This document shows positions 1,864 through 61,729 of a stretch of 64,000 bases of DNA, piece by piece. A program made the position numbers and the translations under genes. The notes beneath the pieces were generated by a model, which had not been told where the DNA came from, made no database searches, and saw nothing but the letters and a program-made list of their open reading frames with translations. Numbering within the stretch: position 1 is the first letter of the stretch; each line of letters opens with the position of its first letter. Location of the stretch: contig NZ_JABBGA010000001.1 in NCBI RefSeq assembly GCF_012927165.1, positions 434,001 through 498,000 on the forward strand. The letters are read 5' to 3'. Source of the stretch: Zoogloea dura. GTDB lineage: Bacteria; Pseudomonadota; Gammaproteobacteria; Burkholderiales; Rhodocyclaceae.

Positions 1864-2937
1864 ATGCCCCGCACCGCACCGCCACCCGATCAGGCCCGCC
1901 TCCAGCCCTTCCGGCTGGAAGCGCTCACCCCGCTCAACCATGAAGTCCTGCGCCTGGAACTGAGCCAGATCGCCGGCCCGCCACTCACCTATCGGGAGGG
2001 GCAGTTCGTCACCGTCCGCCTGCCGGACGGCACTGCGCGCAGCTATTCCCCCGCCGCTGCCTGCCAGGGCGACGGCCGCCTCGAACTGCACATCCGGACC
2101 TTGCCCGGCGGCCGCTTCTCCACCTGGCTGCGCAGCGATGCAGCCTGCCCCGGCGCCCTCCTGGACATCGGCGGGCCTTACGGCGACTGCGTGTGGACGC
2201 CCCCGGACACGGCCGGGGCCCCGCTCCTGCTGCTGGCCACCGGCACCGGCATCGCACCGATCCGCGCCATGCTGGCCCGCCACCTGGGCGGTGCGGGCGG
2301 GCATCCGGTGCATCTGTACTGGGGCGGCCTGGACCAGCCGGATCTCTACCTCGGCGAGGAATTCGCAGCCCTCGCCATCCGCCATGCCCATTTCCGTTTC
2401 ACCCCGGTGCTCGCCGCACCCGCCGAGCCCTGGAGGGGCCGCCGTGGTTACGTGCAGGCGGCTGCAGCGGACGATCTGCCCAGGCTGGATGGCGCCCGCG
2501 TCATCGCCTGTGGCTCATCGGCCATGGTCGACGCGGCGCGGATGCTGCTGGTGGCCGCCTGCGGGCTCGCGCCGGATGCCTTCCACGCCGACGCCTTCGT
2601 GGCACAGGCCGCCGCGCCGATGTCCTCCAGCGACGCCAGCCTGAGCCTCGAGGTGGCGCTTCCACAGGCGCCCGCCCGCAGGCTCGCAGCCCCCCCGGGC
2701 AGCACGGTCCTGAACACCCTGGCCGCTGCCGGCCTGCTGCAGGGCGTGTGCGGCGGCCAGGCCGCCTGCGGCACCTGCCGGATCGGTATCGATCCGGCCT
2801 GGCGGGCCGCCCTGCCGCCGGCCGGACGCAAGGAGGCCCGTCTCCTCGCCGCCCTCGAGAGCGGCCCCGACCAGCGCCTGGCCTGCCAGATCTGCCTTGA
2901 AGCGCCCCTCGACGGCCTGCGCATCGAACTCCCCTGA
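1864..2937 (+). CDS. FAD/NAD(P)H oxidoreductase with C-terminal 2Fe-2S domain
   Basis: A 357-residue electron-transfer protein of the ferredoxin-NADP reductase superfamily. The FAD domain has the RSYS motif (59-62) and the nucleotide domain has GTGIAP (127-132). A C-terminal ferredoxin domain carries C296, C302, C305 and C341. The C-x5-C-x2-C-x35-C spacing is closer to adrenodoxin/ISC-type ferredoxins than to the plant-type C-x4-C-x2-C usual in oxygenase reductases. It would pass electrons from NAD(P)H via FAD to the cluster and then to a partner oxygenase or demethylase, but no oxygenase gene lies nearby. An M24 hydrolase follows 37 bases downstream. Confidence 0.85.
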   Translation: MPRTAPPPDQARLQPFRLEALTPLNHEVLRLELSQIAGPPLTYREGQFVTVRLPDGTARSYSPAAACQGDGRLELHIRTLPGGRFSTWLRSDAACPGALLDIGGPYGDCVWTPPDTAGAPLLLLATGTGIAPIRAMLARHLGGAGGHPVHLYWGGLDQPDLYLGEEFAALAIRHAHFRFTPVLAAPAEPWRGRRGYVQAAAADDLPRLDGARVIACGSSAMVDAARMLLVAACGLAPDAFHADAFVAQAAAPMSSSDASLSLEVALPQAPARRLAAPPGSTVLNTLAAAGLLQGVCGGQAACGTCRIGIDPAWRAALPPAGRKEARLLAALESGPDQRLACQICLEAPLDGLRIELP

Positions 2938-2974
2938 AACGCTTTTTCCACCACCCAGTGAAAGGATCCACCCC

Positions 2975-3673
2975 ATGACCACCCAAGCCATCAGCAGCCC
3001 GGACCAGGCCCGCCTCGAGGGCGTCGGCCCCGCCTTTGATCCGGAACGCCTCCTCCACGTCCGGACCCTGACCCGTCAGGCGATCGAGCGCATCGCCGCC
3101 GCCGTCCAGCCCGGCATGTTCGAGGAAGACGCCGTGGAGATGGCCCGCGACCTCCTCGCCGAAGCCGGCATGCTGCGCGGCTGGCACGATGTCTATGTGC
3201 GCTTCGGCAGCAACACCACCAAGACCTTCGGTGCGCCCTCCGACCCCGGCGTGGTGCTGGGCGAGGATGATCTCTTCTTCATCGACATCGGTCCGGTCTG
3301 GAAGGACTGGGAAGGCGACGGCGGCGACAGCTTCGTGACCGGCAGCGATCCCGACAAGGCCCGCTGCGCCGCCGATGCCCGCGCGATCTTCCACGAGGTG
3401 CGGCGCAAATGGCTGAGCGAAAGAGCGACCGGACGCGCCCTCTACGACTATGCGGTGTCCTGCGCCGCCGCCCGCGGCTGGGTCCTCAACATGGACCTCT
3501 CCGGCCATCGCATCGCCGACTTTCCCCATGCGGCGATCCATGAAGGGCCCCTGGCCGAGGCCGACTTCGCACCCTCGCGGCTGCTGTGGGTCCTGGAGAT
3601 CCATATCCGCCACCCGAGCGAAGCCTACGGTGCGTTCTTCGAAGACCTGCTGCTGGAAGACAGCTACTTCTGA
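2975..3673 (+). CDS. M24-family (Xaa-Pro aminopeptidase-like) metallohydrolase
   Basis: A 232-residue protein made of the pita-bread domain alone, without the N-terminal domain of typical aminopeptidase P. Likely metal ligands are the Asp of FIDIGPV, the Asp of GDGGDSF, the His of SGHRIADFPH, the Glu of WVLEIHI and the Glu in the final AFFEDLL. An AAGGA ribosome site lies 11 bases before the chosen ATG. M24 members are methionine or proline aminopeptidases, creatinases or related C-N hydrolases. Pairing with a reductase under a MocR regulator hints at small-molecule amide metabolism rather than peptide turnover, but that is inference. Confidence 0.75.
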   Translation: MTTQAISSPDQARLEGVGPAFDPERLLHVRTLTRQAIERIAAAVQPGMFEEDAVEMARDLLAEAGMLRGWHDVYVRFGSNTTKTFGAPSDPGVVLGEDDLFFIDIGPVWKDWEGDGGDSFVTGSDPDKARCAADARAIFHEVRRKWLSERATGRALYDYAVSCAAARGWVLNMDLSGHRIADFPHAAIHEGPLAEADFAPSRLLWVLEIHIRHPSEAYGAFFEDLLLEDSYF

Positions 3674-3734: not shown

Positions 3735-3845
3735 CCGTCATTGGGGAGTAGCCGACCTTCTACCTGAAGGAGCCTGCGTCAACATACTTGGCCAACCAGC
3801 CATGGCGCAGGCAGTTCCCGAACCTGGCAAGACCTTTGACCACCC
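3735..3845 (+). ncRNA. yybP-ykoY manganese riboswitch
   Basis: The leader of the GDT1-type gene contains the hallmark yybP-ykoY elements in the right order: TTGGGGAGTAGCC (3741-3753), CGTCAACATAC (3777-3787) and GACCTTTGACC (3831-3841). These correspond to the conserved L1 and L3 metal-binding loops and closing strand of the Mn2+-sensing aptamer known from E. coli mntP and alx leaders. It sits immediately upstream of a manganese-exporter family gene, the known target class. Boundaries are approximate. Confidence 0.85.
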
Positions 3846-3856
3846 TCGCCCCCGGA

Positions 3857-3899
3857 CTGGCCGGACGGGCGTGGTGGTCATCCGTCTCCGTCCGGCCAG
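3857..3899 (+). promoter_or_regulatory. Expression-platform hairpin of Mn riboswitch
   Basis: A perfect 12-bp inverted repeat, CTGGCCGGACGG at 3857-3868 and CCGTCCGGCCAG at 3888-3899, follows the aptamer and ends at the AGGGAA ribosome site 5' of the ATG at 3911. There is no U-run, so translational masking of the ribosome site rather than termination is the likelier switching mode. The switching model is inference. Confidence 0.55.
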
Positions 3900-3910
3900 G
3901 GAATCAGATC

Positions 3911-4486
3911 ATGGAAGCCTTCCTCGTCTCCACGGGCATCGTCGCCCTCGCTGAAATCGGCGACAAGACGCAACTTCTCGCCTTCATCCTCGCGGCCAAG
4001 TTCCGCAAGCCCGTCCCCATCATCGTCGGCATCCTGGTGGCCACCCTGGTCAATCACGGATGCGCCGGTGCGGTCGGCGAGTGGATCACCCACCTGGTCA
4101 GCGCGCAGACGCTGCGCTGGGTGCTCGGCGTGTCCTTCATCGGCATGGCGATCTGGACGCTGATCCCCGACAAGTTCGAGGAGGAGGATGCCAAGCTGGC
4201 CCGCATGGGCGTGTTCGGCACCACCCTGGTGGCCTTCTTCCTGGCCGAGATGGGCGACAAGACGCAGATCGCCACGGTGGCGCTGGCCGCCCAGTACCAG
4301 AACCTGGCCGTGGTGGTGGCCGGCACGACGATTGGCATGATGATTGCAAATGTGCCGGCAGTGATTCTCGGCGACCGCATTGCCCACCGCATGCCGGTGC
4401 GCCTGGTGCATGGCATCGCCGCGGCCATTTTTGCGGTGCTCGGGGTGGCCACCCTGCTCGGTGCGGGCGAAGGTCTCGGCCTTTGA
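3911..4486 (+). CDS. GDT1/TMEM165 (UPF0016) family manganese exporter
   Basis: A 191-residue inner-membrane protein with six predicted helices in two homologous halves. Each half carries the family signature E-x-G-D-K-T-Q (E15-Q21 and E113-Q119), which lines the cation pathway. Bacterial members such as Vibrio MneA export Mn2+. The start at 3911 puts the ATG about 5 bases after an AGGGAA ribosome site; an upstream in-frame start would run through the riboswitch. The manganese riboswitch directly in front supports efflux under manganese excess. The gene converges with the GntR regulator at 4519. Confidence 0.9.
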   Translation: MEAFLVSTGIVALAEIGDKTQLLAFILAAKFRKPVPIIVGILVATLVNHGCAGAVGEWITHLVSAQTLRWVLGVSFIGMAIWTLIPDKFEEEDAKLARMGVFGTTLVAFFLAEMGDKTQIATVALAAQYQNLAVVVAGTTIGMMIANVPAVILGDRIAHRMPVRLVHGIAAAIFAVLGVATLLGAGEGLGL

Positions 4487-4518: not shown

Positions 4519-5232
4519 TTAGCCCGGCTGCACCGCGCCAGCCCGTGCCAGACTCTCCTGGCGGGCGGCATGCAGATGGTGAAGGGTGATCTTGCGCACC
4601 TCGGCCTTGCTCGCCTCGATATGCGAGCGCAGCAGGATGCCGGCCTGGGCCGTCTTGCGCTGGATCAGCAGGCGCAGCAGCTGGGCGTGCTCGTCGTAGG
4701 TCGCCTGGATGCGCGCCGGGTTGGTGAAGTCCAGGCGGCGGATGACGCGGATCTTCTCGGTCACCTCCTGGTGCACCGCGGCCATCTCGCGGTTGCCGGT
4801 GGCCTGCATCAAGCCCTGGTGAAAGGCTTCGTCGAGGGCCGCCACGCGCTGGCCATCGGGCAGGCGCTCGGCCTTGTCCACCAGCCAGATGTCGGCCAGG
4901 GCGCTCAGGTCCGCGGTCTCCGGCGCCTCGCAGATGCGCTGCACGGCGGCCAGTTCCAGCACCGTGCGCAGGTCGTAGAGCTGGTCGAAACGGTCGAAAT
5001 CGAAATTGCGCACCGACCAGCCGCTGCGGAAATACACCTGCACGAAGCCCTCCCGCTCCAGGCGGTACAGGGCGTGGCGCACCGGTGTGCGTGATACGCC
5101 GTAGCGCTCGGCGATCAGGGTCTCGGTGAAGCGGTCACCCGGCAGCAGATGGAAGGAGAAGATCTCGTCCTTGAGCTGCTGGTAGATCCGGGAGGCAAGT
5201 GCGTTTTCTTTGGGGCGGCTGGTATTGCCCAT
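4519..5232 (-). CDS. FCD-type GntR regulator of the ureido operon
   Basis: A 237-residue FadR-subfamily regulator: N-terminal winged helix (about 10-75, with the ERYGVSRTPVRHAL recognition motif) and a C-terminal all-helical FCD ligand-binding domain. It is the last gene of the leftward run that begins at 13235 and starts only 4 bases after the stop of the AtzH-like gene, so it is probably co-transcribed and autoregulatory. The candidate operator is the dyad at 13247-13262. The likely effector is a ureido compound or pathway intermediate, by context only. Confidence 0.85.
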   Translation of the reverse strand: MGNTSRPKENALASRIYQQLKDEIFSFHLLPGDRFTETLIAERYGVSRTPVRHALYRLEREGFVQVYFRSGWSVRNFDFDRFDQLYDLRTVLELAAVQRICEAPETADLSALADIWLVDKAERLPDGQRVAALDEAFHQGLMQATGNREMAAVHQEVTEKIRVIRRLDFTNPARIQATYDEHAQLLRLLIQRKTAQAGILLRSHIEASKAEVRKITLHHLHAARQESLARAGAVQPG

Positions 5233-5236
5233 GGGC

Positions 5237-5623
5237 TCAGGTCAGCATGCTCACGTGGGCCGAGACGACCCGCCAGCCCTCGGGAAACAGCACCCAGGTC
5301 TGGCTCTGGCGCCCCACGGGATCACCGTCGCGCAGGAACTCCACGTCGGCGGTGGCGAAGGTCTCGCCAAAGGTGGTGATCACCAGGTTGCGCAGCTGTC
5401 TCGGCATGTTGGCGGGGGGAACGAACAGCTCCCGATATCGGCGGATCGCCTCGGCGCCGTAATGGATCTCGGCGATGCCGAAGCGGACGGTCAGCGGATT
5501 GTCCCAGAAAAGTTCGTTGAGGACCGCCACGTCGTTGGCGATCAGCGCGGCTTCGTAGCGTTCGAAGACCTGGGCCATGGCTTTGGCAACGTGGGGCAGG
5601 TTCACTGCAGGGGACAGGCTCAT
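5237..5623 (-). CDS. atzH: AtzH/DUF3225-like protein (SnoaL fold)
   Basis: A 128-residue cystatin/SnoaL-like protein with the AtzH/HpxZ-family features: the WDNPLTVRFGI and GAEAIRRYRELF motifs and a C-terminal QTWVLFPEGWRVVSAHVS strand pair. AtzH of Pseudomonas ADP has been described as a hydrolase of 1,3-dicarboxyurea that feeds allophanate to AtzF, and family members sit beside amidases in nitrogen-scavenging loci. The ATG at 5623 follows a GAAGGAG ribosome site. In an operon with biuret and allophanate hydrolases, a role on a carboxylated urea intermediate is plausible. The catalytic claim rests on family knowledge. Confidence 0.75.
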   Translation of the reverse strand: MSLSPAVNLPHVAKAMAQVFERYEAALIANDVAVLNELFWDNPLTVRFGIAEIHYGAEAIRRYRELFVPPANMPRQLRNLVITTFGETFATADVEFLRDGDPVGRQSQTWVLFPEGWRVVSAHVSMLT

Positions 5624-5633
5624 ACAGGCTCCT

Positions 5634-6299
5634 TCAGGTTTCGAGGCCCGCCGCGAGCGCCGCCAGCGGCGCCGTCCAGCCAACGATCGCGCCCTGGGCG
5701 CGGACCATCTCCAGGGTGGCCGCCTTGAAGGCCGGGAAATAGCTCTCGGTGGCGTCCTCGATCAGCAGGCATTCATAGCCCCGGTCGTTGGCCTCGCGCA
5801 GGGTGGTCTGCACGCAGACCTCGGTGGTGACGCCGGCGAAGATCAGGTGGGTGATGCCCTTCAGGCGCAGGATCTCGCCCAGCGCGGTGGCGTAGAAAGC
5901 CCCCTTGCCCGGCTTGTCGATGATGATCTCACCGGCCAGCGGCGCCACCGCCGGCAGGATGTCGTTGCCCGGCTCGCCGGCCACGAGGATGCGCCCCATC
6001 GGGCCGGGGTCGCCGATGCGCAAGCTGGCGGCACCCCGCTCCCGCTTGGCCGGCGGGCAGTCGGACAGGTCCGGGCGATGCGCCTCGCGGGTGTGGATCA
6101 CGGTGATCCCGTGGCGCCGGCACAGGGCCAGCAGCGCGGCCACCGTCGGCACGATGGCGGCCAGCAGCGAGACGTCGTTGCCCAGGCTCTCGCCGAAGCC
6201 GCCGGGTTCGATGAAGTCGCGCTGCATGTCGATGACGATCAGCGCGCTGCGGGCCGGCTCAAAGATGTAGTCGAAGGGTTGGGCATGGATGATCGGCAT
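5634..6299 (-). CDS. Isochorismatase-family cysteine hydrolase, candidate triuret hydrolase
   Basis: A 221-residue amidohydrolase with the family triad visible as D24 (IDMQRDF), K129 ([10 protein letters not shown]) and C162 (TTEVCVQTT). It resembles the BiuH encoded by the same operon in the DKPGKG motif and the TREAHRPDL segment but is clearly diverged. Two such hydrolases in one operon imply two sequential or alternative substrates. Known relatives hydrolyse biuret, triuret, ureidoacrylate or N-carbamoyl compounds. Triuret hydrolase, giving carboxybiuret that decays to biuret, is the option best fitting the neighbours. It lies 10 bases upstream of the AtzH-like gene and 7 bases after the ABC ATPase. 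Confidence 0.8.
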
Positions 6300-6306
6300 G
6301 ATTTCC

Positions 6307-7887
6307 TCAGTGGCCGTGGCCGGCCATGTAACGTCCGATGGCGGCCACATCGGCCTGGCCCGCCAGGGCCTCGTAGGCGATCACGCCCTCGGACATGACC
6401 ACGATGCGGTCGGACAGCTCGAGCAGCTCATCCAGGTCTTCGCTGACCAGCAGGATCGCCGCCCCCTCGTTGCGGGCCTGGTCAAGGCGCCGGTGGATGG
6501 CCTCCGTGGCGGCGAAGTCCAGCCCGAACACCGGGTTGGCCACCACCAGCAGCTGCACCGGGCCGGACAGCTCCCGCGCCAGCACGGCTCGCTGCACATT
6601 GCCCCCCGACAGGTTCTCGATGGCGGCGGCGGGATCGTCCGGGCGCACGCCGAAGGCCTCGATCAGGGTCTTCGCCCGGCGGGTCAGGGCGCCGCGCCGC
6701 AGGAAGCCCAGGCTCAGCCAGCCGCCCGCATACGGGGCGATGTCGAAATCCCGCAGGCCCATGTTCTCGGCCACGCTCATGGCCGGCACGCAGGCATTGC
6801 GCAGAGGCTCTTCCGGCAGGCTGAAGACGCCGTGGCGGCGCATCTGCGCGCGGCTGGCCTGGTAGTCCTCGCCGGCCACCCGGACCTGCCCGGCGCTGGC
6901 CTTGCGCTGACCGAGCAGGACTTCGACCAGCTCCTTCTGGCCGTTGCCGGCCACCCCGGCCACCCCGACGATCTCGCCGGCCCGCACGCTCAGGTCGAGG
7001 CCGCGCACCGATGGCGTGCCCCGGTCGTTGTCGGCGTGGAGCCCCTCCACGTCCAGCCGGACCTCGCCGATGGCCTGGGTCTGGTCGGCGGCGCAGCGGC
7101 GCCTCCCCGAACTCACCGCGACGCTGCTGCCCACCATCATCTCGGCCATCTCTGCCGTGCTCAGATCGCCGACCCGCCCGCTGCCTGCCAGCTTGCCGCG
7201 GCGCAGGATGGTGACGCCGTCGCCATAGGCGCTCACCTCGCGGAACTTGTGGCTGATCATCAGCACGGTGAGGCGTCCGTCACGGGTCATGCCATGCAGC
7301 AGGCCGAGCACCTCGTCGGCCTCGCCGGGGGTCAGGACCGAGGTCGGCTCGTCGAGGATCAGCAGGCGCTGGCCCAGGTAGAGCTGCTTGAGGATCTCCA
7401 GCTTCTGCTTCTCGCCGGCGGCCAGATCGGCCACCAGGGCGTTCAGGTCGAGGCGGAAAGGGGTGCTGTCCAGGAAGGCGGCGAGGGCCGCCTTTTCGTG
7501 GCGCCAGTCGATGCGCAGGGGCAGGTCGCCGCGGGCCAGCAGCAGGTTCTCGGCCACCGTCATGCCCGGCGCCAGGGTGAAGTGCTGGTACACCATGCCG
7601 ATGCGCAGGCGCTGGGCGTCGCGCGGGCTGCGGATGTCCTGCTCGCGGCCGTCCACCATGAAGCCGCCCTCCTCCGGCGGGTGGTAGCCCACCAGGCATT
7701 TGACCAGGGTGCTCTTGCCGGCGCCGTTCTCGCCCAGCAGGCAATGGAAGCTGCCCGCCTCCACCTTCATGGAGACCGCGTCGAGGGCGGTGAAGGCACC
7801 GAAGCGCTTGGTGACCCGGAAGGCCTCGACGGCAGCGCCGCGGTGCTGCAGGTCAGCCGCGGTGAGGGAGTGGGTGAGCGGATCCAT
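6307..7887 (-). CDS. Duplicated ABC ATPase of BMP-type importer
   Basis: A 526-residue cytoplasmic ATPase with two ABC domains in tandem, the organisation of nucleoside/simple-sugar importers. The first domain has Walker [10 protein letters not shown] and the signature-like LAAGEKQK. The second has the degenerate P-loop GVAGNGQKE and the signature LSGGNVQ. ATG at 7887 is chosen because it lies 4 bases after the BiuH stop; upstream in-frame starts would overlap biuH. It would energise the two permeases at 8613-10575, which receive substrate from the lipid- or Tat-exported binding protein at 10591. The substrate is probably a ureide rather than a nucleoside, given the operon. Confidence 0.9.
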
Positions 7888-7891
7888 GGCC

Positions 7892-8575
7892 TCAGCCCAG
7901 GGCCGCCAGCAGGCTGGCCGAGTCGGACACGGCACCGAAGACACCGCCCTGCATCTTGATCATCTTGAGCGCCGCCAGGTGGTTGCCGTGGTCGGTGGCG
8001 CCACAGCAGTCCTCCAGCAGCAGGCATTCGAAGCCCATGTCGTTGGCGTCGCGCATGGTGGTGTGCACGCACACGTCGGTGGTGATGCCGCTCAGGATGA
8101 TGTTGCGGATGCCGCGGGTGCGCAGCACCAGCTCCAGGTCGGTGGCGTAGAAGGAGCCCTTGCCCGGCTTGTCGATGATCACCTCGCCGGGCAGCGGCGC
8201 GAGTTCGGGGATGATCTCCCAGCCGGGCTCGCCGCGCACCAGGATCCGGCCGCAGGGCCCGCTGTCGCCGATTCCCGCGCCGATGCGTTGGGAGCGCCAG
8301 CGCTTGTTGGGCGGCAGGTCGGCCAGGTCGGGGCGGTGCCCTTCGCGAGTGTGGATGATGAAGAAGCCCAGGCTGCGCAGGCGGGCCAGCACCGCCTTGA
8401 TCGGCTCGATCGGGGCGCGGGTCAGGGACAGGTCGTAGCCCATCTTGTCCACGTAGCCGCCGACGCCGCAGAAGTCGGTCTGCATGTCGATGATGATCAG
8501 CGCCGTGTTGGCCGGCGTCAGGTCACCGTTCCAGGGCCAGGGATAGGGATCGGCCGCGAGGCTGAAGTCTGTCAT
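7892..8575 (-). CDS. biuH: Biuret amidohydrolase
   Basis: A 227-residue isochorismatase-fold enzyme that hydrolyses biuret to allophanate and ammonia. The catalytic residues known for Rhizobium leguminosarum BiuH (D36, K142, C175, with Q215 in the pocket) correspond here to D30, K136, C169 and Q209, all at the same offset of 6. Long stretches such as DPYPWPWNG, the [14 protein letters not shown] region and [16 protein letters not shown] are as I recall them in BiuH. The ureidoacrylate hydrolase RutB is a related family but is less consistent with these motifs. A neighbouring allophanate hydrolase would complete degradation to ammonia and CO2. Confidence 0.85.
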
Positions 8576-8589
8576 GGTCGTACTCCGGG

Positions 8590-8622
8590 TTCAGCGTTGA
8601 TTCAGCGTTGGGTTAGCGTTGA
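8590..8622. repeat. Three tandem 11-12 bp repeats at a gene end
   Basis: On the plus strand TTCAGCGTTG, TTCAGCGTTG and TTAGCGTTG occur in tandem with a period of 11-12 bases. They lie between biuH and the end of the downstream permease coding sequence. On the minus strand the left copy supplies the permease stop codon (CTCAACGCTAA), and the others contain in-frame-like TGA triplets. A local slippage duplication explains it best; a regulatory role is not evident. Confidence 0.7.
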
Positions 8623-9548
8623 GTGAGGGACAACTCGCCCGGGGCCCCGGCGAGGCTGCGGCCGGGCGTCCAGCTGGCCGCCATCAGGGCCAGGGTCAGC
8701 ACGTAGGGCGCCGCATTGAAGAGGTAGTAGCCGGCCGTGATGCCCTGCGACTGCAGGGCCGGACCGAGGGCCCCCGCCGCGCCGAAGAGCAGCGCGGCCA
8801 GCGCACAGCGCAGGGGGTTCCAGCGGGCGAAGATGACCAGCGCCACCGCCATCAGCCCCTGGCCGCTGGACAGGCCCTCGTTCCAGCTGCCGGGGTAATA
8901 CAACGACAGGAAGGCACCGCCGACCCCCGCCAGGAAGCCGCCCGCCGCCGTCGCGCCGATGCGGATGGGCACCACCGGGTAGCCCAGGGCACGGGCGGCC
9001 GCGGCGTTGTCGCCCACCAGGCGCAGGGCCAGGCCCCAGCGGCTGGCCCGGAAGCCCCAGTGCAGCAGCAGCGCCAGCAGCAGGCCGAGGGGCAGCAGCA
9101 CATTGATGCGCAGGGCCGACTGCAGCTGGGCGCTGTCGCTCCAGGCCCCCAGCTCGAGGGACGGCAGCATCGGCGCCTGGGGCTGGATCAGCGGCTTGCC
9201 CAGGAAGAAGGCCAGGCCGGTGCCAAAGAGCATCAGCGAGATGCCGACCGCAATGTCATTGACCTTGGCCAGGGAGCACAGGCCGCCATGCAGCAGCCCC
9301 ATCATCAGCCCGCACAGGCCGGCCGCCAGCACCCCCAGCCAGGGCGAGCCGCTGGCCAGCGAGACGCCGTAGCCGCTCATCGCCCCGAGCACGAGGATGC
9401 CTTCCAGGCCCAGGTTGATGCGCCCCGACTTCTCGGTGATGCACTCCCCCAGGCTGACGAAGAGAAACGGCGTGCTGACCCGCAGCGCGCCCCCCAGCAA
9501 GGCCAGCGCCAGGCTGCCGAAAGCAAGGCTGTCACCACCATCAGACAC
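8613..9548 (-). CDS. ABC permease, BPD_transp_2 family (second subunit)
   Basis: A 311-residue inner-membrane permease with about eight to ten hydrophobic helices and the family motif ITEKSGRINLGLEGILVLG near the N terminus. The GTG at 9548 is taken as start: it overlaps the end of the upstream permease gene by 8 bases and has AAAGGAG 6 bases before it. Any ATG farther upstream would read through that gene in another frame. It pairs with the permease at 9541-10575 to form the transmembrane channel of the BMP-type importer. Confidence 0.9.
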   Translation of the reverse strand: MSDGGDSLAFGSLALALLGGALRVSTPFLFVSLGECITEKSGRINLGLEGILVLGAMSGYGVSLASGSPWLGVLAAGLCGLMMGLLHGGLCSLAKVNDIAVGISLMLFGTGLAFFLGKPLIQPQAPMLPSLELGAWSDSAQLQSALRINVLLPLGLLLALLLHWGFRASRWGLALRLVGDNAAAARALGYPVVPIRIGATAAGGFLAGVGGAFLSLYYPGSWNEGLSSGQGLMAVALVIFARWNPLRCALAALLFGAAGALGPALQSQGITAGYYLFNAAPYVLTLALMAASWTPGRSLAGAPGELSLTQR

Positions 9549-10575
9549 GACGGACTCCTTTGCGGTTGAGGGTTTCGAAGGCCAGCAGGGCCACGAACAG
9601 GCCCCCTTGCAGCACCAGGGTAGCCGCGTCCGGCAGGTCGATGCGGCGCTGCAGCAGGCTGCCCGACGCGCCGATGCCGCCCACCAGGATGGCGCAGGCG
9701 ATGATGCCCAGCGGGTTGTGGCGGGCCGCGAAGGACACCAGGATGCCGGCGTAGCCATAGCCGGCCAGCAGCGCGGCATTGGCGCTGCCGTGCACCGCCG
9801 CCACCTCCAGCATGCCCGCCAGGCCGGCCGCTCCGCCGCCGAGGAAGCAGGCGGTGAGGATCAGCCCGCCCACCGGCAGGCCGGCCATCATGGCGGCCCT
9901 GGGATTGCCGCCGACCACCCCGACGGCAAAGCCGAACACCGTCTGGCGCACCAGGAAGCCCATCGCAAGGCAGATCAACACGCCCCAGAACAGCCCCCAA
10001 TGCACCTCCATCCCCGGCATCGCGCCGATCAGGAAGGGCTCCGCCAGGGGAGTGGTGGAGGGCTTGTTGAGACTGGCCGGGTCCCGCAGCACGCCTTCCA
10101 CCAGGAAGTTGAAGAGGGCGATGCCGATGTAGGCCAGCAGCAGGCTGGAGATGGTCTCGTTGATGCCCCGCGCGTGGCGCAGCCAGGCCGACAGGGCGAT
10201 CCAGGCTCCGCCCGCGATGAAGCCCGCCGCCGCCATCAGCAGCTGGACCGGCAGCGCCGGCCAGCCTGCGCAGGCCGCAGGCACCACGGCCGCCGCCAGC
10301 GCCCCCACCGCCAGGGCCCCTTCCCCGCCGATGATGACCAGCCCGGCACGGGCCGGCAGGGCCACGCAGAGGGCTGTGAGCATCAGTGGCGCCGCCCGCG
10401 ACAAGGTGTTCTGCCAGGCGAAGGAGGAACCGTAGGCGCCCTCCACCACCAGCTCCAGCGCCTCCATGGCGGGGAAACCCTGGGCGGCCAGGAACAGGGC
10501 GAACAGCAGCGCCGCGGCCAGCACCGCCGCGGTGAAGGGCATGAAGGGCGCGGCAAGGGTCCGGACGGCGTTCAT
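9541..10575 (-). CDS. ABC permease, BPD_transp_2 family (first subunit)
   Basis: A 344-residue integral membrane protein with about eight to ten hydrophobic segments. It has the typical RAGLVIIGGEGALAVGALAA motif and the INETISSLLLAYIG segment that follow the first helices in nucleoside/purine-type permeases partnering BMP proteins. It starts 15 bases after the binding-protein gene and its stop overlaps the next permease start. It forms the heterodimeric pore with the following gene. Substrate is inferred from the operon to be biuret, triuret or a related ureide. Confidence 0.9.
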   Translation of the reverse strand: MNAVRTLAAPFMPFTAAVLAAALLFALFLAAQGFPAMEALELVVEGAYGSSFAWQNTLSRAAPLMLTALCVALPARAGLVIIGGEGALAVGALAAAVVPAACAGWPALPVQLLMAAAGFIAGGAWIALSAWLRHARGINETISSLLLAYIGIALFNFLVEGVLRDPASLNKPSTTPLAEPFLIGAMPGMEVHWGLFWGVLICLAMGFLVRQTVFGFAVGVVGGNPRAAMMAGLPVGGLILTACFLGGGAAGLAGMLEVAAVHGSANAALLAGYGYAGILVSFAARHNPLGIIACAILVGGIGASGSLLQRRIDLPDAATLVLQGGLFVALLAFETLNRKGVRRV

Positions 10576-10590
10576 GGCGGCCCCCGTCGC

Positions 10591-11715
10591 TCAGATCTGG
10601 CCGATCACGCCATCGAGCAGGTAGTTCATGCCCTCCAGCAGCGGATCCTGCTGACCAAGCACCTTGCCGGCCGCCACCACCGTTTTGCCGGTGTTGTCCA
10701 CCAGGGGGCCCTTGAAGATGGGGAAGTCGCCCTTCATCATCGCCGCCTTGACCGCGTCGGACTTCTTGCGCGCCTCGGCCGACACCGCAGGGCCGAAGGG
10801 CGAGGGCTTGACGAAACCGTCCTTCAAGCCACCGCGCAGGAAGTTGACCATCGGCTTGCCCTCGATGGTGGCCTTGATGATCTGGGTATAGGGCGTCTGC
10901 CAGTCCCACTCCGCGCCGGTCAGGTAGCCCTTGGGCGCCAGCTTGGCCTGGCTGGCGTGGTAGCCGCAGCTGAAAGCGCCCCGCCGCTCTGCCGTCTCGA
11001 CGATGACCTTGGGGCTGTCCACGTGACAGGTCAGCACATCCACGCCCTGGTCGATCAGGCTGTTGGCGGCCTCCGCCTCCTTCACCGGCAAGGACCAGTC
11101 ACCGGTGAAGATGACCCGCACCGTGGCCTTCGGATCCACCGAGCGGGCCCCCAGCAGGAAGGCATTGATGTTGCGCAGCACCTGGGGGATCGGCTTGGCG
11201 GCGATGAAGCCGAGCTTCTTGCCCTTGCTCGCCGAGGCCGCGGCGATGCCGTTGAGGTACTGGCATTCGTCGATGTAACCAAAGAAGCTGCCGACGTTCT
11301 TCGGGTGCTTGCCCTCGGTCCACAGCCCGCCGCAATGGGCGAAGCGCACGTTGGGATACTTCTCGGCCATCTTCAGCACATGGGGGTCGAAGTAGCCGAA
11401 GGAGGTGGCGAAGATCAGGGTCGCCTTGTCCTGGTTGATCATGGCCTCCATGGTCTTCTGCACCGCCACCGTCTCGGGCACCTTTTCCTCTTCGATGACC
11501 TTCACCCCGGGCAGCTTCTTGATCACCGCCACCGCCTGGGCCTGAGCCTGGTTGTAGCCGAAATCATCCCGCGGCCCGACATAGATCACCCCGACCACCA
11601 GCTTGTCGGCGGCAGCGGCCCGCCCGATGCCGAAGGGCAGCATGTGGGTGGCGGCGCCGGCGCCGAGGAGACGCAGCAGATTGCGACGATGAGACTGGAT
11701 GCGGGATGCAGACAT
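10591..11715 (-). CDS. BMP-family periplasmic substrate-binding protein
   Basis: A 374-residue binding protein of the basic-membrane-protein (PnrA-like) family. The N terminus carries a twin-arginine-like signal (SHRRNLLRLLGAG followed by a hydrophobic stretch and AAA cleavage region), so Tat export is likely. The mature part shows the family core VGVIYVGPRDDFGYN, GYIDECQYLNGIAAA and the GAEWDWQTPYTQII segment. It is the second gene of the ureido operon, 77 bases after the amidase, and delivers substrate to the permeases immediately downstream. Confidence 0.9.
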   Translation of the reverse strand: MSASRIQSHRRNLLRLLGAGAATHMLPFGIGRAAAADKLVVGVIYVGPRDDFGYNQAQAQAVAVIKKLPGVKVIEEEKVPETVAVQKTMEAMINQDKATLIFATSFGYFDPHVLKMAEKYPNVRFAHCGGLWTEGKHPKNVGSFFGYIDECQYLNGIAAASASKGKKLGFIAAKPIPQVLRNINAFLLGARSVDPKATVRVIFTGDWSLPVKEAEAANSLIDQGVDVLTCHVDSPKVIVETAERRGAFSCGYHASQAKLAPKGYLTGAEWDWQTPYTQIIKATIEGKPMVNFLRGGLKDGFVKPSPFGPAVSAEARKKSDAVKAAMMKGDFPIFKGPLVDNTGKTVVAAGKVLGQQDPLLEGMNYLLDGVIGQI

Positions 11716-11792
11716 GGTTCAGCTCTCTTTCTGTCGGTTCGGAATGGGGGGACGGCTATCAGCGGTGACGGCCAGCGCCGTGCCGCAGCAAA

Positions 11793-13235
11793 TCAAGGAT
11801 TTCGCCTGCTGCCCGCCGGCTCGGCAAAGGGCAAGGGCGGCAGGCTCGCCGTGCAGCGCGGCGGCACCCGGAAGCTCACCCCCAGCCGGGCATGCAGGGC
11901 CGGCTCCCACTGGCGCGCGATCTCGGCCAGCAGGTGGTCGGCGCCGGCCGGGCCGATCAGGGTCACCCCCGCCGGCAGGCCGTCCGCCCGGAACGGCCCG
12001 GGCATGGCCAGGGCGCTCAGGCCCAGCAGATTGACGAAATTGGTAAAGCGCCCGAGCCGGGCATTGCGCTCGAAGGGGCGCTCGGCGACCTCCCGGCTCG
12101 TATAGGTGGTGGGCGTGGTGGGTACCAGCAGCACGTCGACATGCCGGAAGACGTCCAGGCAGACCGGCGTCAGCTCGTCGAGGCGGTAGCGCCCCAGGAA
12201 GGCATCGGCGGCGCTCATGCCGTCGGCCGAGGCGATGATGGCGGCCACCACCGGATCCATCCCGTCGCGGTGGGCATCGAAAAAGCTCCCGAGTGCGGCC
12301 CGGCGCTCGGCCACCCAGGGGCCGTCGTACAGGAGCGAGGTGACCTCGTGGAAGGGCGCCAGATCCACCTCCTCGAAGCCGGGCCCGTCCCCGTCGCCCA
12401 GTGCCACGAGCGCCGACTGGAAGGCATCCCAGGCCTGGGGGTCGAGCTCATCCTGCAACCCCGCCGGAACGCCCGCCACCAGCTCCCGCGGCGGCAAGCC
12501 CCGGGAAGGCGCAGTGCCGCCATCACAGGCAAGCCCCATGACCCGCCAGCCCTCCGCCACCGTGTGGGCAAATACCGACACGCAGTCCAGGCTGCGGCAG
12601 GCCGGCACCACGCCCTTGCTGGAGAGCAGGCCAGGCGTGGGCTTGAGCCCCACCAGGTTGCAGAAGGCCGCCGGGACCCGCCCCGACCCGGCGGTGTCGG
12701 TGCCCAGGGCAAAGGCCACGTGCCCCAGTGCCGTGGCCGCCGCCGAGCCGGAGCTGGAACCGCCGGAGATGTAGTCGGGATGAAAGGGGCTCTGCACCGC
12801 GCCATAGGGCGAGCGGGTCCCCACCAGGCCGGTGGCAAACTGGTCCAGGTTGGTCTTGCCCACCACAATGGCACCCGCCGCCTCCAGGCGCTGCACCACG
12901 TCTGCCGAGGCTTCGGGGAGGTAGGCAAAGGCCGGGCAGGCAGCCGTCGTCGCGAAGCCTGCCACGTCGATGTTGTCCTTGACCGCGAAGGGCACGCCGA
13001 ACAGAGGTTCGGCCTCCAGCACCGCGGCGGGGCCGGCACGCAGCCGCGCATCCATCCCGGCCAGCCTTGCCCGCAGCCCGCTGTCCGTCGCCACGCTGAT
13101 CCAGATCGTGGGGTCGTCGGCCGCGGCGATGCGGGCCAGCACCGCCCTGATCAGCTCGCTCGGAACGAAGCTTCCGTTCCGGTAGCCTTCAAGCACGAAT
13201 TCAATGGTCAGAACCGGCGGCAGACTGGCATTCAC
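11793..13235 (-). CDS. atzF: Allophanate hydrolase-like amidase lacking the C-terminal domain
   Basis: An amidase-signature enzyme of 480 residues from a GTG start (13235). The Ser-cisSer-Lys triad is visible as K86 (AVKDNID), S161 (GGSSSG) and S184 (TAGSGRVPAAF). The LVGLKPTPGLLSSKGVVPACRSLD stretch, split as KPTPGLLS and VVPACRSLDC, marks the allophanate hydrolase subgroup. AtzF proteins are about 600 residues because of a C-terminal domain that processes the N-carboxycarbamate product. Here the protein ends after the amidase domain, so that step would be spontaneous or done elsewhere. A longer ATG start at 13286 would place the candidate operator inside the gene. It is the first gene of the ureido operon. 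Confidence 0.85.
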   Translation of the reverse strand: MNASLPPVLTIEFVLEGYRNGSFVPSELIRAVLARIAAADDPTIWISVATDSGLRARLAGMDARLRAGPAAVLEAEPLFGVPFAVKDNIDVAGFATTAACPAFAYLPEASADVVQRLEAAGAIVVGKTNLDQFATGLVGTRSPYGAVQSPFHPDYISGGSSSGSAAATALGHVAFALGTDTAGSGRVPAAFCNLVGLKPTPGLLSSKGVVPACRSLDCVSVFAHTVAEGWRVMGLACDGGTAPSRGLPPRELVAGVPAGLQDELDPQAWDAFQSALVALGDGDGPGFEEVDLAPFHEVTSLLYDGPWVAERRAALGSFFDAHRDGMDPVVAAIIASADGMSAADAFLGRYRLDELTPVCLDVFRHVDVLLVPTTPTTYTSREVAERPFERNARLGRFTNFVNLLGLSALAMPGPFRADGLPAGVTLIGPAGADHLLAEIARQWEPALHARLGVSFRVPPRCTASLPPLPFAEPAGSRRNP

Positions 13236-13246
13236 TTGAGGACCCA

Positions 13247-13262
13247 ATCTTGGATACAAGAT
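13247..13262. promoter_or_regulatory. Candidate operator for FCD/GntR regulator
   Basis: A 16-base dyad ATCTTG-GATA-CAAGAT with perfect 6-base arms lies 12 bases upstream of the GTG of the first ureido-operon gene. FadR/FCD regulators typically bind short dyads of the TTGTATACAA kind, and the only such regulator here is the last gene of this same operon. The overlapping TTGGAT...ATCCAA arrangement (13251-13272) adds a second partial symmetry. Binding is inferred. Confidence 0.5.
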
Positions 13263-13435
13263 GGAATCCAAATAAGCAGCATGCATGCCACTTGAAGCCT
13301 TTCAGGCTTCCTCATAGCAATCAGCTACTTACAAAACGAATGGAAAATCCGCCGGATGGTGCGCTGCACCGTCAGTGGGAGAGGCCGCGCCTTCAGGCAC
13401 AAGCACAGTGCGCGGCCGGGCGCCGCACCCGACCG

Positions 13436-14407
13436 TCAGGCTGTCGTGGCGCTGCGCGAACGGGCGAGGCCCAGCTGCCGCTCGAACCAGGCGACTGTCC
13501 GCTCCAGCCCCTCGTCCAGTTCGACGGATGGCTGCCAGTCCAGCAGCCGCCGGGCCAGCCGGATGTCCGGCTGACGCAGCCGCGGGTCGTCACCGGGCAA
13601 GGGCTTGAAGACCAGCTCCGATGCAGCCCCGGTCAAGGCGACAACCTGCCGGGCCAGCTCGAGGATGGTGAATTCCCGGGGGTTGCCGAGATTCACCGGC
13701 CCTTCGGCTCCGGCCGGTGCCGCCATGAGCCTGATCAACCCGTCGATCATGTCATCCACGTAACAGAATGAACGGGTCTGCAGGCCATCGCCGAACAGCC
13801 CGAGGGGTTCACCGCGCAGGGCCTGGACGATGAAGCTGGAGATCACCCGCCCGTCCTCGGGCAGCATGCGCGGCCCGTAGGTGTTGAACAGCCGGGCCAC
13901 CCGGATATCCACGCCGTACTCCCGGTGATAGTCGAAGAACAAGGTCTCGGCGCAGCGCTTGCCCTCGTTGTAGCAGGCCCGCGGCCCGGTCGGATTGACG
14001 TTGCCGGGGTAGCTCTCGGACTGCGGGTGCACCTCGGGATCGCCATACACCTCGCTGGTGGAGGCCTGCAGGATGCGGGCCTTGTGCGCCCGCGCCAGAT
14101 CCAGCGTATGGAGCGCCCCCAGCACCGAGGTCTTCAGGGTGCCCACCGGATCGCTGCGGTAGTGCACCGGCGATGCCGGGCAGGCCAGGTTGTAGATCTC
14201 ATCCACCTGCTCCTCCAGCACCAGGGGGCGGGTGACGTCATGCTCGACAAAGCGGTAGTCCGGATGGGACAGCAAGGGAGCGATGTTGTCGCGGCTGCCG
14301 GTGTGCAGGTTGTCAATGCACAACACCCGGTGCCCCAGGCCGAGCAGGCGCTCGCACAGGTGGGAGCCCAGGAAACCGGCCCCGCCGGTCACGACGATGT
14401 GCGACAT
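13436..14407 (-). CDS. UDP-glucuronate decarboxylase (UXS-type SDR)
   Basis: A 323-residue extended short-chain dehydrogenase converting UDP-glucuronate to UDP-xylose. The NAD-binding motif is GGAGFLG (8-14), the catalytic residues lie in STSEVYGDP and Y146-x3-K150 (YNEGK), and the family segments [17 protein letters not shown] and TRSFCYVDD are present. ATG at 14407 is preferred for its AAAGGA ribosome site. An upstream ATG at 14449, overlapping the glycosyltransferase stop as TGATG, would add 14 residues. It supplies a pentose sugar nucleotide for surface glycans, probably used by the adjacent glycosyltransferase. Confidence 0.88.
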
Positions 14408-14448
14408 GGCCGGTGCGTCCTTTGTGTTCATGGTGGTGTGGTGAGGCA

Positions 14449-15204
14449 TCAATAGCCCTGATCGGCGGTGTGGCCGGCGGCCACCAGGTCGCGGTATTCG
14501 GCATAGCTGGTCTGGCGGTAGCGTTCCTCGGCCGGCAGCCAGACGTTCACCTTGGCGAAGTCGGGCAGCGGCAGCTTGCGCGACAGGTAGTGGATGGCAA
14601 AGGAGGTTTCGTAGTTGACCGTGGCCAGCGGCGAATGGACCCGGTGGGCGTTGCTCTTGCTCACCGCATCCCAGAACAGGCAGTCGCCGAGCCCACCGAT
14701 GCTGCGCGTCACCTGCTGCGTCCGCAAACCCCAGGCGGCAAACAGGGAGAAGGCCTGCTCCATGACCAGGTAGCAGTTGGTGTCGTTGAAGCGGCGGCCG
14801 TCGGACTCGGCGCACAGCCCGAGCAGCTCTCCGTTATCCGGCCGCACCAGGCGCCGGGCGCAGGTCACGACCAATGCGGCATGGCGTTGCTGGACCCGCA
14901 ACAGGGTCTCGATGTGATCGGGCTGGAACCAGTTGTCCGCATCCAGCAACAGCACGGCGTCGAAGGCCTGGGCCGCCGCCGAGGCACAACCTATCAGGCG
15001 GGGCGCGTCACCGGAATCGGCATGTGAGAGGGGCAGCGGGATGTGCTGGCAGCGCGGCCAGGCATTCACCTCGGCGCGCGGATAGCCGTCGGCCACCATG
15101 ATGTGGGTTACATCGGCATGGGTCTGGTTGATCACACTGGCATGGCAGCGTTCGAGCTTCTCCAGCGGCTCGCGGTAATAGGGGGTGACGACGGCTACAC
15201 GCAT
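14449..15204 (-). CDS. Family 2 glycosyltransferase
   Basis: A 251-residue GT-A fold enzyme with the N-terminal [15 protein letters not shown] nucleotide-binding strand and the metal-binding DAD motif (D88-A-D90, in [13 protein letters not shown]). No membrane segment is evident, so it acts at the cytoplasmic face. It is translationally linked to the UXS gene downstream, with which it probably serves capsule or LPS synthesis. The acceptor and donor are unknown. The start at 15204 is chosen because the conserved Rossmann strand begins there. Confidence 0.8.
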
Positions 15205-17823: not shown

Positions 17824-17898
17824 TCACACAATATAGGCAATCGTCTCCTCGTCAAACAGGGGGTGGCCCCTCCATTCGACTGCCCCCCGTGAAGGTAA

Positions 17899-60526: not shown

Positions 60527-61729
60527 TTAAAAGAAGGTGATGCCCGCGGGCTCCGGGGCTGCATTGCCGTCTCCGTGCAAGGCGTGTTGCTCCGCAGTGG
60601 TGTAGGTCCGGCGCATTTCGCGTGTCCAGGTGTCGCCATCCAGCGCCTCGGGGCGCCGCCCCGAATGCAGATCGTCCTGCATTGCGCGAAGGCGCTCTTC
60701 CAGGCGGGCCATGTCTCCCGTGACATGCGCCAATACCTGGCTGACCCGGTCCTGGAACTGCAATCCGACCAGCACATCGCCGATCTCGGCACCCACCGCC
60801 TGCCCCTCCTTGGCCATCGCTGCCGATGAATCCACGAGCGCCGCTGCCGCGGCCCTCAGGCGCTGCACCACCTGTCCGATCTGCTGGCTTGATGTGCTTA
60901 CAAGGAGTTCGTCACTTCGGGCCGAGTCACGGGAGACCTCAAGCGTCTCTCCGATCGTTCCGGTGACCGTTCTCACCGTCTCGGCGATCTTTCTGCCCAT
61001 TTCGCCAGAAGCGGTGGAGAGCTTCCGCACCTCATCGGCGACGACGGCAAACCCGCGCCCCGCCTCGCCGGCCCGGGCCGCTTCAATCGCGGCGTTGAGG
61101 GCCAGCAGATTGGTCTGTTTTGCCAGGTCACCGACTTCACCCGCCATCCGCTCCAGGGTGGATGTCACGCCACCCAGTTCGACGACGTGGGCCAACAGCA
61201 CCTCCTTGTGCTGAAGAGCCTGCCGCAAGGCACCGACAATCTCGTCCAGTTCGCTTTCGCTGGCATTGAGCAGGGAGACAAGGTCCTGCTCACCTGCACC
61301 GCGGGTGGCAAGGACCGAGGTTTCGACGCGGCGCGAGATATCGGCAAAACGGCGGGACAGACCCGTGATCGCATCCTCGGTCTGCCCTCGTACGACCTCG
61401 ACCTCGCCGCGCCACAACGGGAGAACCCGACCGCACAGACTGTCGAGCCCGTCGATCCTGGGCGTCTCCTGCGCCTGGCACAGCGCCTGCTCACCCACGT
61501 GGCGGCGCTGCCGCTCAAGCGTTTGAGCATGACTCCGCTCACTGGCCATGCCGGCCAACAGCGCCACACCACACTGAAGCACGGCGCCACCCAGCGTCAG
61601 CGGCCCTATCCCTCCCAGTACAAGCAGGAGCCCCGCCCCGAAACCACCGATCGCCAGCCAGCCCCAAGGAATGCGCCTGCCCGACACACCACTATCAGCC
61701 ACCAAGGTCATTGCATCCGAATAGCTCAT
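60527..61729 (-). CDS. Receptor-like protein with CheZ-like D-x3-Q motif
   Basis: A 400-residue protein: two adjacent membrane helices (about 22-41 and 45-62) with almost no periplasmic part, then a coiled-coil hairpin whose tip is [20 protein letters not shown]. After the hairpin comes LQFQDRVSQ (323-331), in which D327-x3-Q331 matches the catalytic FQDLTGQ motif of CheZ, and a tail ending AGITFF. No HAMP domain is visible. It could sense cytoplasmic or membrane state and dephosphorylate the adjacent CheY. The stop of the upstream gene overlaps its start by 4 bases. Phosphatase activity is inference. Confidence 0.8.

Follow-up and report, generated by a model that had tools for sequence, protein, structure and literature searches.

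A predicted triuret and biuret operon in Zoogloea dura, with candidate nitrogen-control elements and an AtzH-like protein lacking Arg66

Triuret and biuret are by-products of urea that reach soils with urea fertiliser, and operons for their breakdown have been described in Herbaspirillum sp. BH-1 and Rhizobium leguminosarum 3841, where TrtA, BiuH and AtzF occur together and the route leads from triuret through carboxybiuret, biuret and allophanate to ammonia; the product of TrtA is carboxybiuret, and TrtB is named as the carboxybiuret decarboxylase (PMC7948467; this and the other papers are cited from the parts of their text available). The same enzyme set, with an importer of the same type, is found on the trtA-trtB-biuH-atzF-bmpA-nupABC contigs of floodplain ammonia oxidisers, for which a gntR gene is given in the legend of the synteny figure (PMC12625717). 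A related system is the cyanuric acid operon atzDGEHF of Pseudomonas sp. ADP, in which AtzE yields 1,3-dicarboxyurea and AtzH has been put forward as the enzyme that decarboxylates it (PMC6219798). Neither the control of the pathway nor the ligand of the importer is settled in the parts of the published accounts found; the terms promoter, NtrC, RpoN and permease are absent from the main text of PMC7948467, where 'transporter' occurs only in a reference, and promoter, sigma, RpoN, NtrC and operator are absent from that of PMC12625717. Here, an operon of this kind is described from a 64,000-nucleotide stretch of Zoogloea dura (assembly GCF_012927165.1, contig NZ_JABBGA010000001.1, positions 434,001 to 498,000), referred to below as the window.

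Judged from its genes and upstream elements, the operon very probably serves to scavenge nitrogen from triuret and biuret, from import through to ammonia, under activation by NtrC and sigma54 and repression by a regulator with an FCD domain. The pathway itself is already published and the operon belongs to a known kind, because its gene set matches that of the published triuret operons. It differs from the Herbaspirillum and Rhizobium operons in an AtzF without the C-terminal domain, and from the ammonia-oxidiser contigs in its host. With atzDGEHF it shares the AtzH-like and AtzF components, but its AtzH-like copy lacks Arg66, biuret would be cut by BiuH instead of AtzE, and searches of the genome gave no AtzD-family match and no close AtzE. 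Nine head-to-tail genes on the minus strand form one tight run from 4519 to 13235, with intergenic gaps of 4-77 bp calculated from the coordinates of the nine genes. In order downstream from the promoter, the features are as follows.

13397-13411, minus strand: candidate NtrC site GCACTGTGCTTGTGC (GCAC-N7-GTGC), 107 nt upstream of the -24 element
13275-13290, minus strand: sigma54-type -24/-12 element TGGCATGCATGCTGCT, a match to TGGCAYRNNNNYTGCW upstream of the first gene
13249-13260, minus strand: candidate operator CTTGTATCCAAG of the FCD regulator, a palindrome 17 bases from the -12 GC
11793-13235, minus strand: AtzF, amidase domain only (TIGR02713, NF006043; PDB 4gyr and 4cp8)
11758-11829, minus strand: weak, out-of-frame remnant match to the AtzF C-terminal domain (24 residues, 50% identity, E 0.13)
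10591-11715, minus strand: BMP-type substrate-binding protein of an ATP-binding cassette (ABC) importer (PF02608; best PDB match AtzT, 6pi5)
9541-10575, minus strand: ABC permease 1 (PF02653)
8613-9548, minus strand: ABC permease 2 (PF02653), with a start codon at about 9548-9551 and sister alignment from about 9533
7892-8575, minus strand: BiuH, biuret amidohydrolase (NF050097, alignment to 6AZO, BiuH-type residues)
6307-7887, minus strand: ATPase of the ABC importer with two ATPase domains (PF00005 in two stretches)
5634-6299, minus strand: second cysteine hydrolase, predicted to be the triuret hydrolase TrtA (alignment to 6XIX, residues, clade)
5237-5623, minus strand: AtzH-like protein, candidate TrtB (carboxybiuret decarboxylase; PF11533, AtzH 6bjt)
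4519-5232, minus strand: GntR-family regulator with FCD domain (PF00392 and PF07729)

Family scans bear out the first-pass annotation of the window in its reading of nine leftward genes in one run, in this order, with a BMP-type importer, an AtzH-like protein and an FCD regulator as last gene, and the match to published gene sets supports its view of the run as an operon leading from triuret and biuret to ammonia. Its coordinates hold for the genes generally but not for the starts of two of them, the AtzH-like gene, which starts at 5623, and the amidase. The amidase open frame extends up to an ATG at 13286; however, the start is most likely the GTG at 13235, rather than 13262 or 13286, because the same GTG is found in four sister species and a start at 13286 would fall within the conserved promoter elements. 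The two permease genes probably overlap at the end of permease 1. No terminator was found after the regulator gene.

The proposed scheme begins with the uptake of a planar oligo-urea by the BMP/ABC importer. TrtA would convert triuret to ammonia and carboxybiuret, for which a half-life of about 20 min has been published, the AtzH-like protein in the role of TrtB would decarboxylate carboxybiuret to biuret, BiuH would release ammonia from biuret to give allophanate, and the amidase of AtzF would split allophanate to ammonia and CO2. Transcription would start under nitrogen limitation from the sigma54 promoter with the help of NtrC, and the regulator encoded by the last gene would repress at the palindrome just downstream of the promoter until its ligand appears. 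Gene content, membership of the TrtA and BiuH families with their specificity residues, conserved synteny and recurrent promoter elements are read from the sequence; from these we infer each of the substrates, the transporter ligand, the decarboxylase role and the pairing of proteins with DNA sites.

The triuret step depends on the second cysteine hydrolase (5634-6299), which the annotation had thought to fit it. Its best match among solved structures is 6XIX, the crystallised and assayed triuret hydrolase of Herbaspirillum sp. BH-1 (69% identity, 149 of 216 residues; E 2.5e-95). All 13 residues checked are equal to those of 6XIX (D24, F29, F35, N41, E72, K129, K132, A134, E160, C162, Y187, Q202 and I205). 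These include the catalytic Asp24, Lys129 and Cys162, with letters and numbering as in 6XIX, and the seven residues discussed for discrimination between TrtA and BiuH (PMC7948467), which are of the TrtA type throughout and carry the same numbers (Phe35, Asn41, Ala134, Glu160, Tyr187, Gln202 and Ile205). In a 60-row tree the protein groups with 6XIX in the TrtA clade, with support of 98/93 (23 rows) and 100/99 for 25 TrtA rows, in an analysis with long outgroup branches, a bootstrap short of full convergence and BiuH rows that do not resolve as one clade. The placement in another known clade that the annotation had named as the contrary outcome was not seen in this tree, which is without a guanylurea hydrolase reference. 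An identity as BiuH was rejected, as the protein scores 262.8 bits against NF050097 (cut-off 370) and falls outside the BiuH rows of the tree, and a defence-system scan gave no match. Alignment, residues and tree placement together support the view that 5634-6299 looks like TrtA.

The TrtA clade is separate from the BiuH rows and from a third group, class 2, that has the same pocket letters; the seven TrtA-type residues are invariant in 11 aligned sequences, which include that of the window and seven class-2 proteins. Six of the seven class-2 genes are in stretches where BiuH was not found, and the remaining one is about 3 kb from a TrtA gene. These hydrolases, outside the TrtA clade, include those at L041 8321-8974, L043 9535-10167, L044 9939-10586, L046 9890-10513, L047 1858-2514 and L048 9189-9839 (L numbers denote compared loci), for which guanylurea is one candidate substrate. 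In one genome of the same order, four hydrolases of the BiuH/TrtA family lie within about 20 kb (L038, G081:C34, at 2742-3356, 14194-14814 and 17835-18494; L039 at 1121-1786); the set includes a class-2 protein beside an AtzF gene, and further ureide specificities are possible.

The product of 7892-8575 scores 420.7 bits against the BiuH equivalog NF050097 (cut-off 370), is 81% identical over 219 residues to R. leguminosarum BiuH (6AZO), and has the BiuH-type letters Y41, Y47, S141, D167, T194 and V212, with a Gln that TrtA and BiuH have in common. By family score and residues it is BiuH, as had been claimed.

A scan of named genomes gave at least 577 related stretches, of which the best 80 TrtA loci, leaning to close relatives, were kept. 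These include alpha- and betaproteobacteria, Rokuibacteriota and one Spirulina. Of these 80 loci, 49 reach 20,000 bases; among them the ATPase and permease 1 are found in 48 each, BMP genes in 47, permease 2 in 46 and BiuH in 45, a few of the counted transporter genes being divergent (e.g. L068 and L080); the AtzH-like gene is present in 30, the regulator in 24 and AtzF in 22. Since the importer and BiuH recur in 45-48 of the 49 loci, and the outer neighbours in the window (an epimerase and GDT1) in none, the gene run is not a product of chance. Close copies (TrtA 85% identical) occur in four of 22 other genomes searched in the genus. DNA similarity to these four sisters, in 19-kb stretches, starts and stops with the operon, and the four share flanks among themselves; therefore, the unit is at a different place in the window genome. 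The Spirulina locus (L114), from a cyanobacterium, has an importer-BiuH-TrtA run, suggesting transfer between phyla or contamination.

The AtzH-like protein scores 154.2 bits against PF11533 (cut-off 27), matches AtzH 6bjt at E 1.1e-33, and is the only match in the genome. It keeps eight of nine AtzH pocket residues, with Tyr22 and Arg46, which are kept in all AtzH-like rows compared, and without Arg66; a one-residue insertion, found in the window copy and in those of the sisters, makes the alignment at position 66 ambiguous by one residue, and neither candidate residue is Arg. The association of the AtzH family with AtzE and AtzG, looked for by way of AtzE, was not found, since the genome has no close AtzE. 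The best genomic match to an AtzE query has 43% identity and, judged by eye, resembles GatA, and one piece of 132 residues is 44% identical, whereas the AtzE genes of TrtA loci are 52-81% identical to the query, distant amidases aside. Many TrtA loci have an AtzE-family gene together with the AtzH-like gene (e.g. L102, with TIGR02715 at 683.6 bits); general AtzE counts in loci also take in distant amidases (31-34% identity).

In the AtzH-like proteins encoded in TrtA loci, Arg66 follows the presence of AtzE. In a first sample, where AtzE was defined as copies above 48% identity, Arg66 is found in 23 of 23 proteins with AtzE and 0 of 20 without, and Arg96 in 23 of 23 versus 12 of 20; a duplicate (L064), three rows near contig ends and five rows of other contexts were set apart. 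In a second sample from an AtzH family search, where AtzE was any AtzE match beating AtzF, TrtA-linked copies have Arg66 in 11 of 11 cases with AtzE and one of eight without. This sample includes L040 and L048 from the first, and without them Arg66 is kept in 10 of 10 with AtzE and lacking in six of seven without; its genomes may overlap the named set further. For both samples combined the counts are 34 of 34 with AtzE and one of 28 without, leaving out loci near contig ends where AtzE could not be judged (L067, with Arg66; L095, L141 and L181, without) and L283, which has a partial TrtA match only; class-2 proteins, for example L048, also pass the TrtA threshold of 220 bits. The TrtA-linked exception is L301, which keeps Arg66 without AtzE. 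Elsewhere in the second sample, copies usually carry Arg66 whether or not AtzE is present, the one AtzE-linked copy that lacks it being L293, which has no TrtA in reach.

This split suggests two wirings of the carboxybiuret step. In one, with AtzE and an Arg66-bearing AtzH-like protein, carboxybiuret would be deaminated to 1,3-dicarboxyurea; in the other, that of the window operon, an Arg66-less subfamily would decarboxylate carboxybiuret to biuret for BiuH. The AtzH-like protein of the window is likely to be such a decarboxylase feeding BiuH. Arg66 belongs to the arginines that surround a two-carboxylate substrate in the AtzH pocket, and its loss would be the visible mark of a shift to a one-carboxylate substrate; the residue is read here as a marker, and perhaps a determinant, of the wiring. 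A proof of the rule independent of the tree was sought and failed: the AtzH-like tree forces only one origin of the Arg66 pattern, with one independent pair on well-supported branches and five on the best tree. With one such pair on supported branches, one ancient division into subfamilies could be enough to account for the pattern. Speaking against a causal role, the five variants that the available text of PMC6219798 describes as reduced include none of Arg66. The association is absent from the literature found and may be new.

A link of the AtzH-like gene to AtzD was rejected, as the two are adjacent in none of 30 AtzD-family loci with short flanks, one of which had TrtA next to AtzD. Among 17 wider AtzD-family stretches, an AtzH-like gene is found in two, L181 (a TrtA operon) and L182 (beside AtzE). 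In L181 (G229:C9), AtzF, an AtzH-like gene, the importer, BiuH, TrtA, a regulator and AtzD form one run with no close AtzE in the stretch, joining the routes from cyanuric acid and triuret in one cluster.

Upstream of the operon, the sigma54 pattern TGGCAYRNNNNYTGCW has three matches in the window against 0.23 expected; the other two lie on the plus strand, at 4333-4348 inside a GDT1-like frame (3788-4486) and at 61476-61491. For scoring, the strict sigma54 consensus TGGCACG-N4-TTGCW, with a GG-N10-GC core, was used. With up to two mismatches it is found in 24 of 55 upstream regions of related loci, where shuffles give 1.01 and the reverse strand gives 1, and with up to one mismatch in 17, as compared with 0.08 and 0. 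A similar core is given in PMC5491218. The post hoc operator pattern CTTGTATNCAAG is exact in eight of 27 regions of regulator-bearing loci, one of 28 without a regulator, and 0.0 in shuffles, and 13249-13260 is the only site in the window within one mismatch of it on either strand. The genome contains five copies of the 12-mer; besides the one at 13249-13260, two fall inside likely coding frames and two outside the listed frames. GCAC-N7-GTGC is also found 106 nt upstream of the -24 element in each of the four sisters, with different inner bases. Among the 34 of 56 regions with a sigma54 element of up to three mismatches, it occurs in seven versus 0.25 in shuffles, with 0 or 1 for other spacings, and with one mismatch allowed in 15 versus 6.28; across the window it is not rare, with four found and 2.95 expected. 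The genome also encodes sigma54 and a full NtrC equivalog. Activation by NtrC and sigma54 under nitrogen limitation is likely, with the FCD protein as local repressor; the binding of the FCD protein to the palindrome and the NtrC-type site are candidate assignments. The three elements are unreported in the literature open to search, outside which most subscription papers lie, and may be new.

Several points weigh against the operon as read here. The sigma54 element of the window has two mismatches in the 12 defined positions of the strict consensus (GG and GC are exact), and 31 of the 55 upstream regions have more than two; in 14 of these 31 the gene that follows is AtzE or AtzH-like, and the promoter may sit further upstream. 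Two close matches (L103 and L118) probably fall within a small gene that precedes AtzE, and may be spurious. The pattern CTTGTATNCAAG was defined after sight of the palindrome, and its exact copies come mainly from the genus of the window and from Paraburkholderia-type operons. Likewise, a single genus supplies five of the seven NtrC-type hits. In Burkholderia cenocepacia H111, mutation of ntrC improved growth on biuret rather than impairing it (PMC5491218). For TrtA, whose score falls short of the BiuH cut-off, membership is judged from alignment, residues and tree rather than from a family model. Finally, the sister AtzF open frames are of 627 residues with matching C-terminal sequence in all four cases, and the window AtzF, of 480 residues, is without it.

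This last point concerns the one gene in which the window operon departs from an otherwise ordinary member of its kind. The annotation of an allophanate hydrolase-like amidase stands for the amidase domain, which scores 526.6 bits against TIGR02713 (cut-off 511.05, model positions 2-418 of 563 covered) and 572.5 against NF006043 (cut-off 487), with the allophanate hydrolases 4gyr and 4cp8 as best PDB matches, but the C-terminal domain is missing. AH_C (PF21986) is absent from the window AtzF and present in the one sister gene tested and in the second copy of the genome. The blastn alignment with the sisters breaks at the AtzF 3' end, where about 335 bp are missing in the window and a misassembly is possible; the remnant match at 11758-11829 is at the expected place, but its E value of 0.13 is over the whole window. 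A relaxed or dead AtzF was considered, as this is the least conserved gene (73% identity to the sisters) and is truncated; the amidase domain gave no support. Between window and sisters, the nonsynonymous divergence (dN) of this domain is 0.194 and 48% of synonymous sites are different, the sister-to-sister ratio to synonymous divergence (dN/dS) is 0.114, and the ratio of window-to-sister dN to sister-to-sister dN is 4.5, inside the range of the other genes (2.5-12.6). By these measures purifying selection still acts on the amidase domain, which is intact. Elsewhere in the genome, urea carboxylase and UAAP1/UAAP2 genes are followed by one for a full-length allophanate hydrolase that has AH_C (G000:C4). 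The loss of the C-terminal domain together with a full-length copy elsewhere is unreported in the literature found.

The nearest solved relative of the binding protein is AtzT (6pi5), in which guanine is sandwiched by Tyr45 and Trp194 and bound by Glu165, Asn218, Asn220 and Ser97 (PMC6834077). The two share the BMP family, the aromatic sandwich and Ser97/Phe98, but the base-reading Glu165, Asn218 and Asn220 are replaced by Gln, His and Asp in the operon proteins; the window pocket reads Y54, S105, F106, Q178, N182, W207, H231 and D233. Across 69 BMP rows from TrtA loci, two of them clearly divergent and one genome counted twice, 68 retain Trp194, 57 have Tyr and 11 have Trp at position 45, and Gln, His and Asp replace the three residues in 58, 67 and 68, respectively. 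Glu165 is retained in two of three BMP paralogues from outside TrtA operons, and the third combines Leu at this position with the His/Asp pair. Such a pocket fits a flat ligand other than guanine, of which triuret or biuret would be examples, and its difference from AtzT is unreported in the literature found. In Hydrogenophaga pseudoflava (L102, 6700-7743), an extra carbon-nitrogen hydrolase (nitrilase) gene (PF00795, 122.3 bits) stands between permease 2 and BiuH.

Three parts of the scheme have competing explanations. The second hydrolase could act on another ureide, such as guanylurea, formylurea or an N-carbamoyl amino acid, which the operon would then serve. Guanylurea hydrolases are of the same superfamily, with up to 65% identity to other members (PMC9800807), and class 2 has the TrtA pocket letters outside the TrtA clade; therefore, the pocket alone is no proof of substrate. 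However, the window protein falls inside the clade of the assayed enzyme and apart from class 2, has 69% identity to 6XIX, and is encoded in one run with BiuH, which would handle its product, so that another ureide is very improbable. For the importer, the relation to the guanine-holding AtzT (PMC6834077) and the label of nucleoside transporter given to this type (PMC12625717) would fit a nucleobase transporter that is a mere passenger in the operon. This is unlikely given the conserved change of the guanine-reading residues (Gln 58/69, His 67/69, Asp 68/69) and the presence of importer genes in 46-48 of 49 TrtA loci.

The carboxybiuret step could also run otherwise, if the AtzH-like protein acted on 1,3-dicarboxyurea as AtzH does and an AtzE-type amidase encoded elsewhere in the genome deaminated carboxybiuret. 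The family match with eight of nine pocket residues would agree with this, as would the place of Arg66 variants outside those described as reduced (PMC6219798). But the best genomic match is the GatA-like protein of 43% identity, below the 52-81% of AtzE in TrtA loci, and Arg66 is absent in 27 of the 28 TrtA loci without AtzE and in none of the 34 with it, which makes this route quite unlikely. Decarboxylation by an Arg66-less AtzH-like protein is preferred for the window operon. The broader proposal, that TrtA operons come in two wirings marked by Arg66 and form a widespread nitrogen-starvation unit driven by NtrC and sigma54 and repressed locally by the FCD regulator, is a tentative one, with slightly less in its favour than an even chance would give.

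For the family, the association of Arg66 with AtzE offers a single-residue test of what might separate carboxybiuret decarboxylase from AtzH, and the sigma54, palindrome and NtrC-type elements would predict when bacteria use triuret and biuret.

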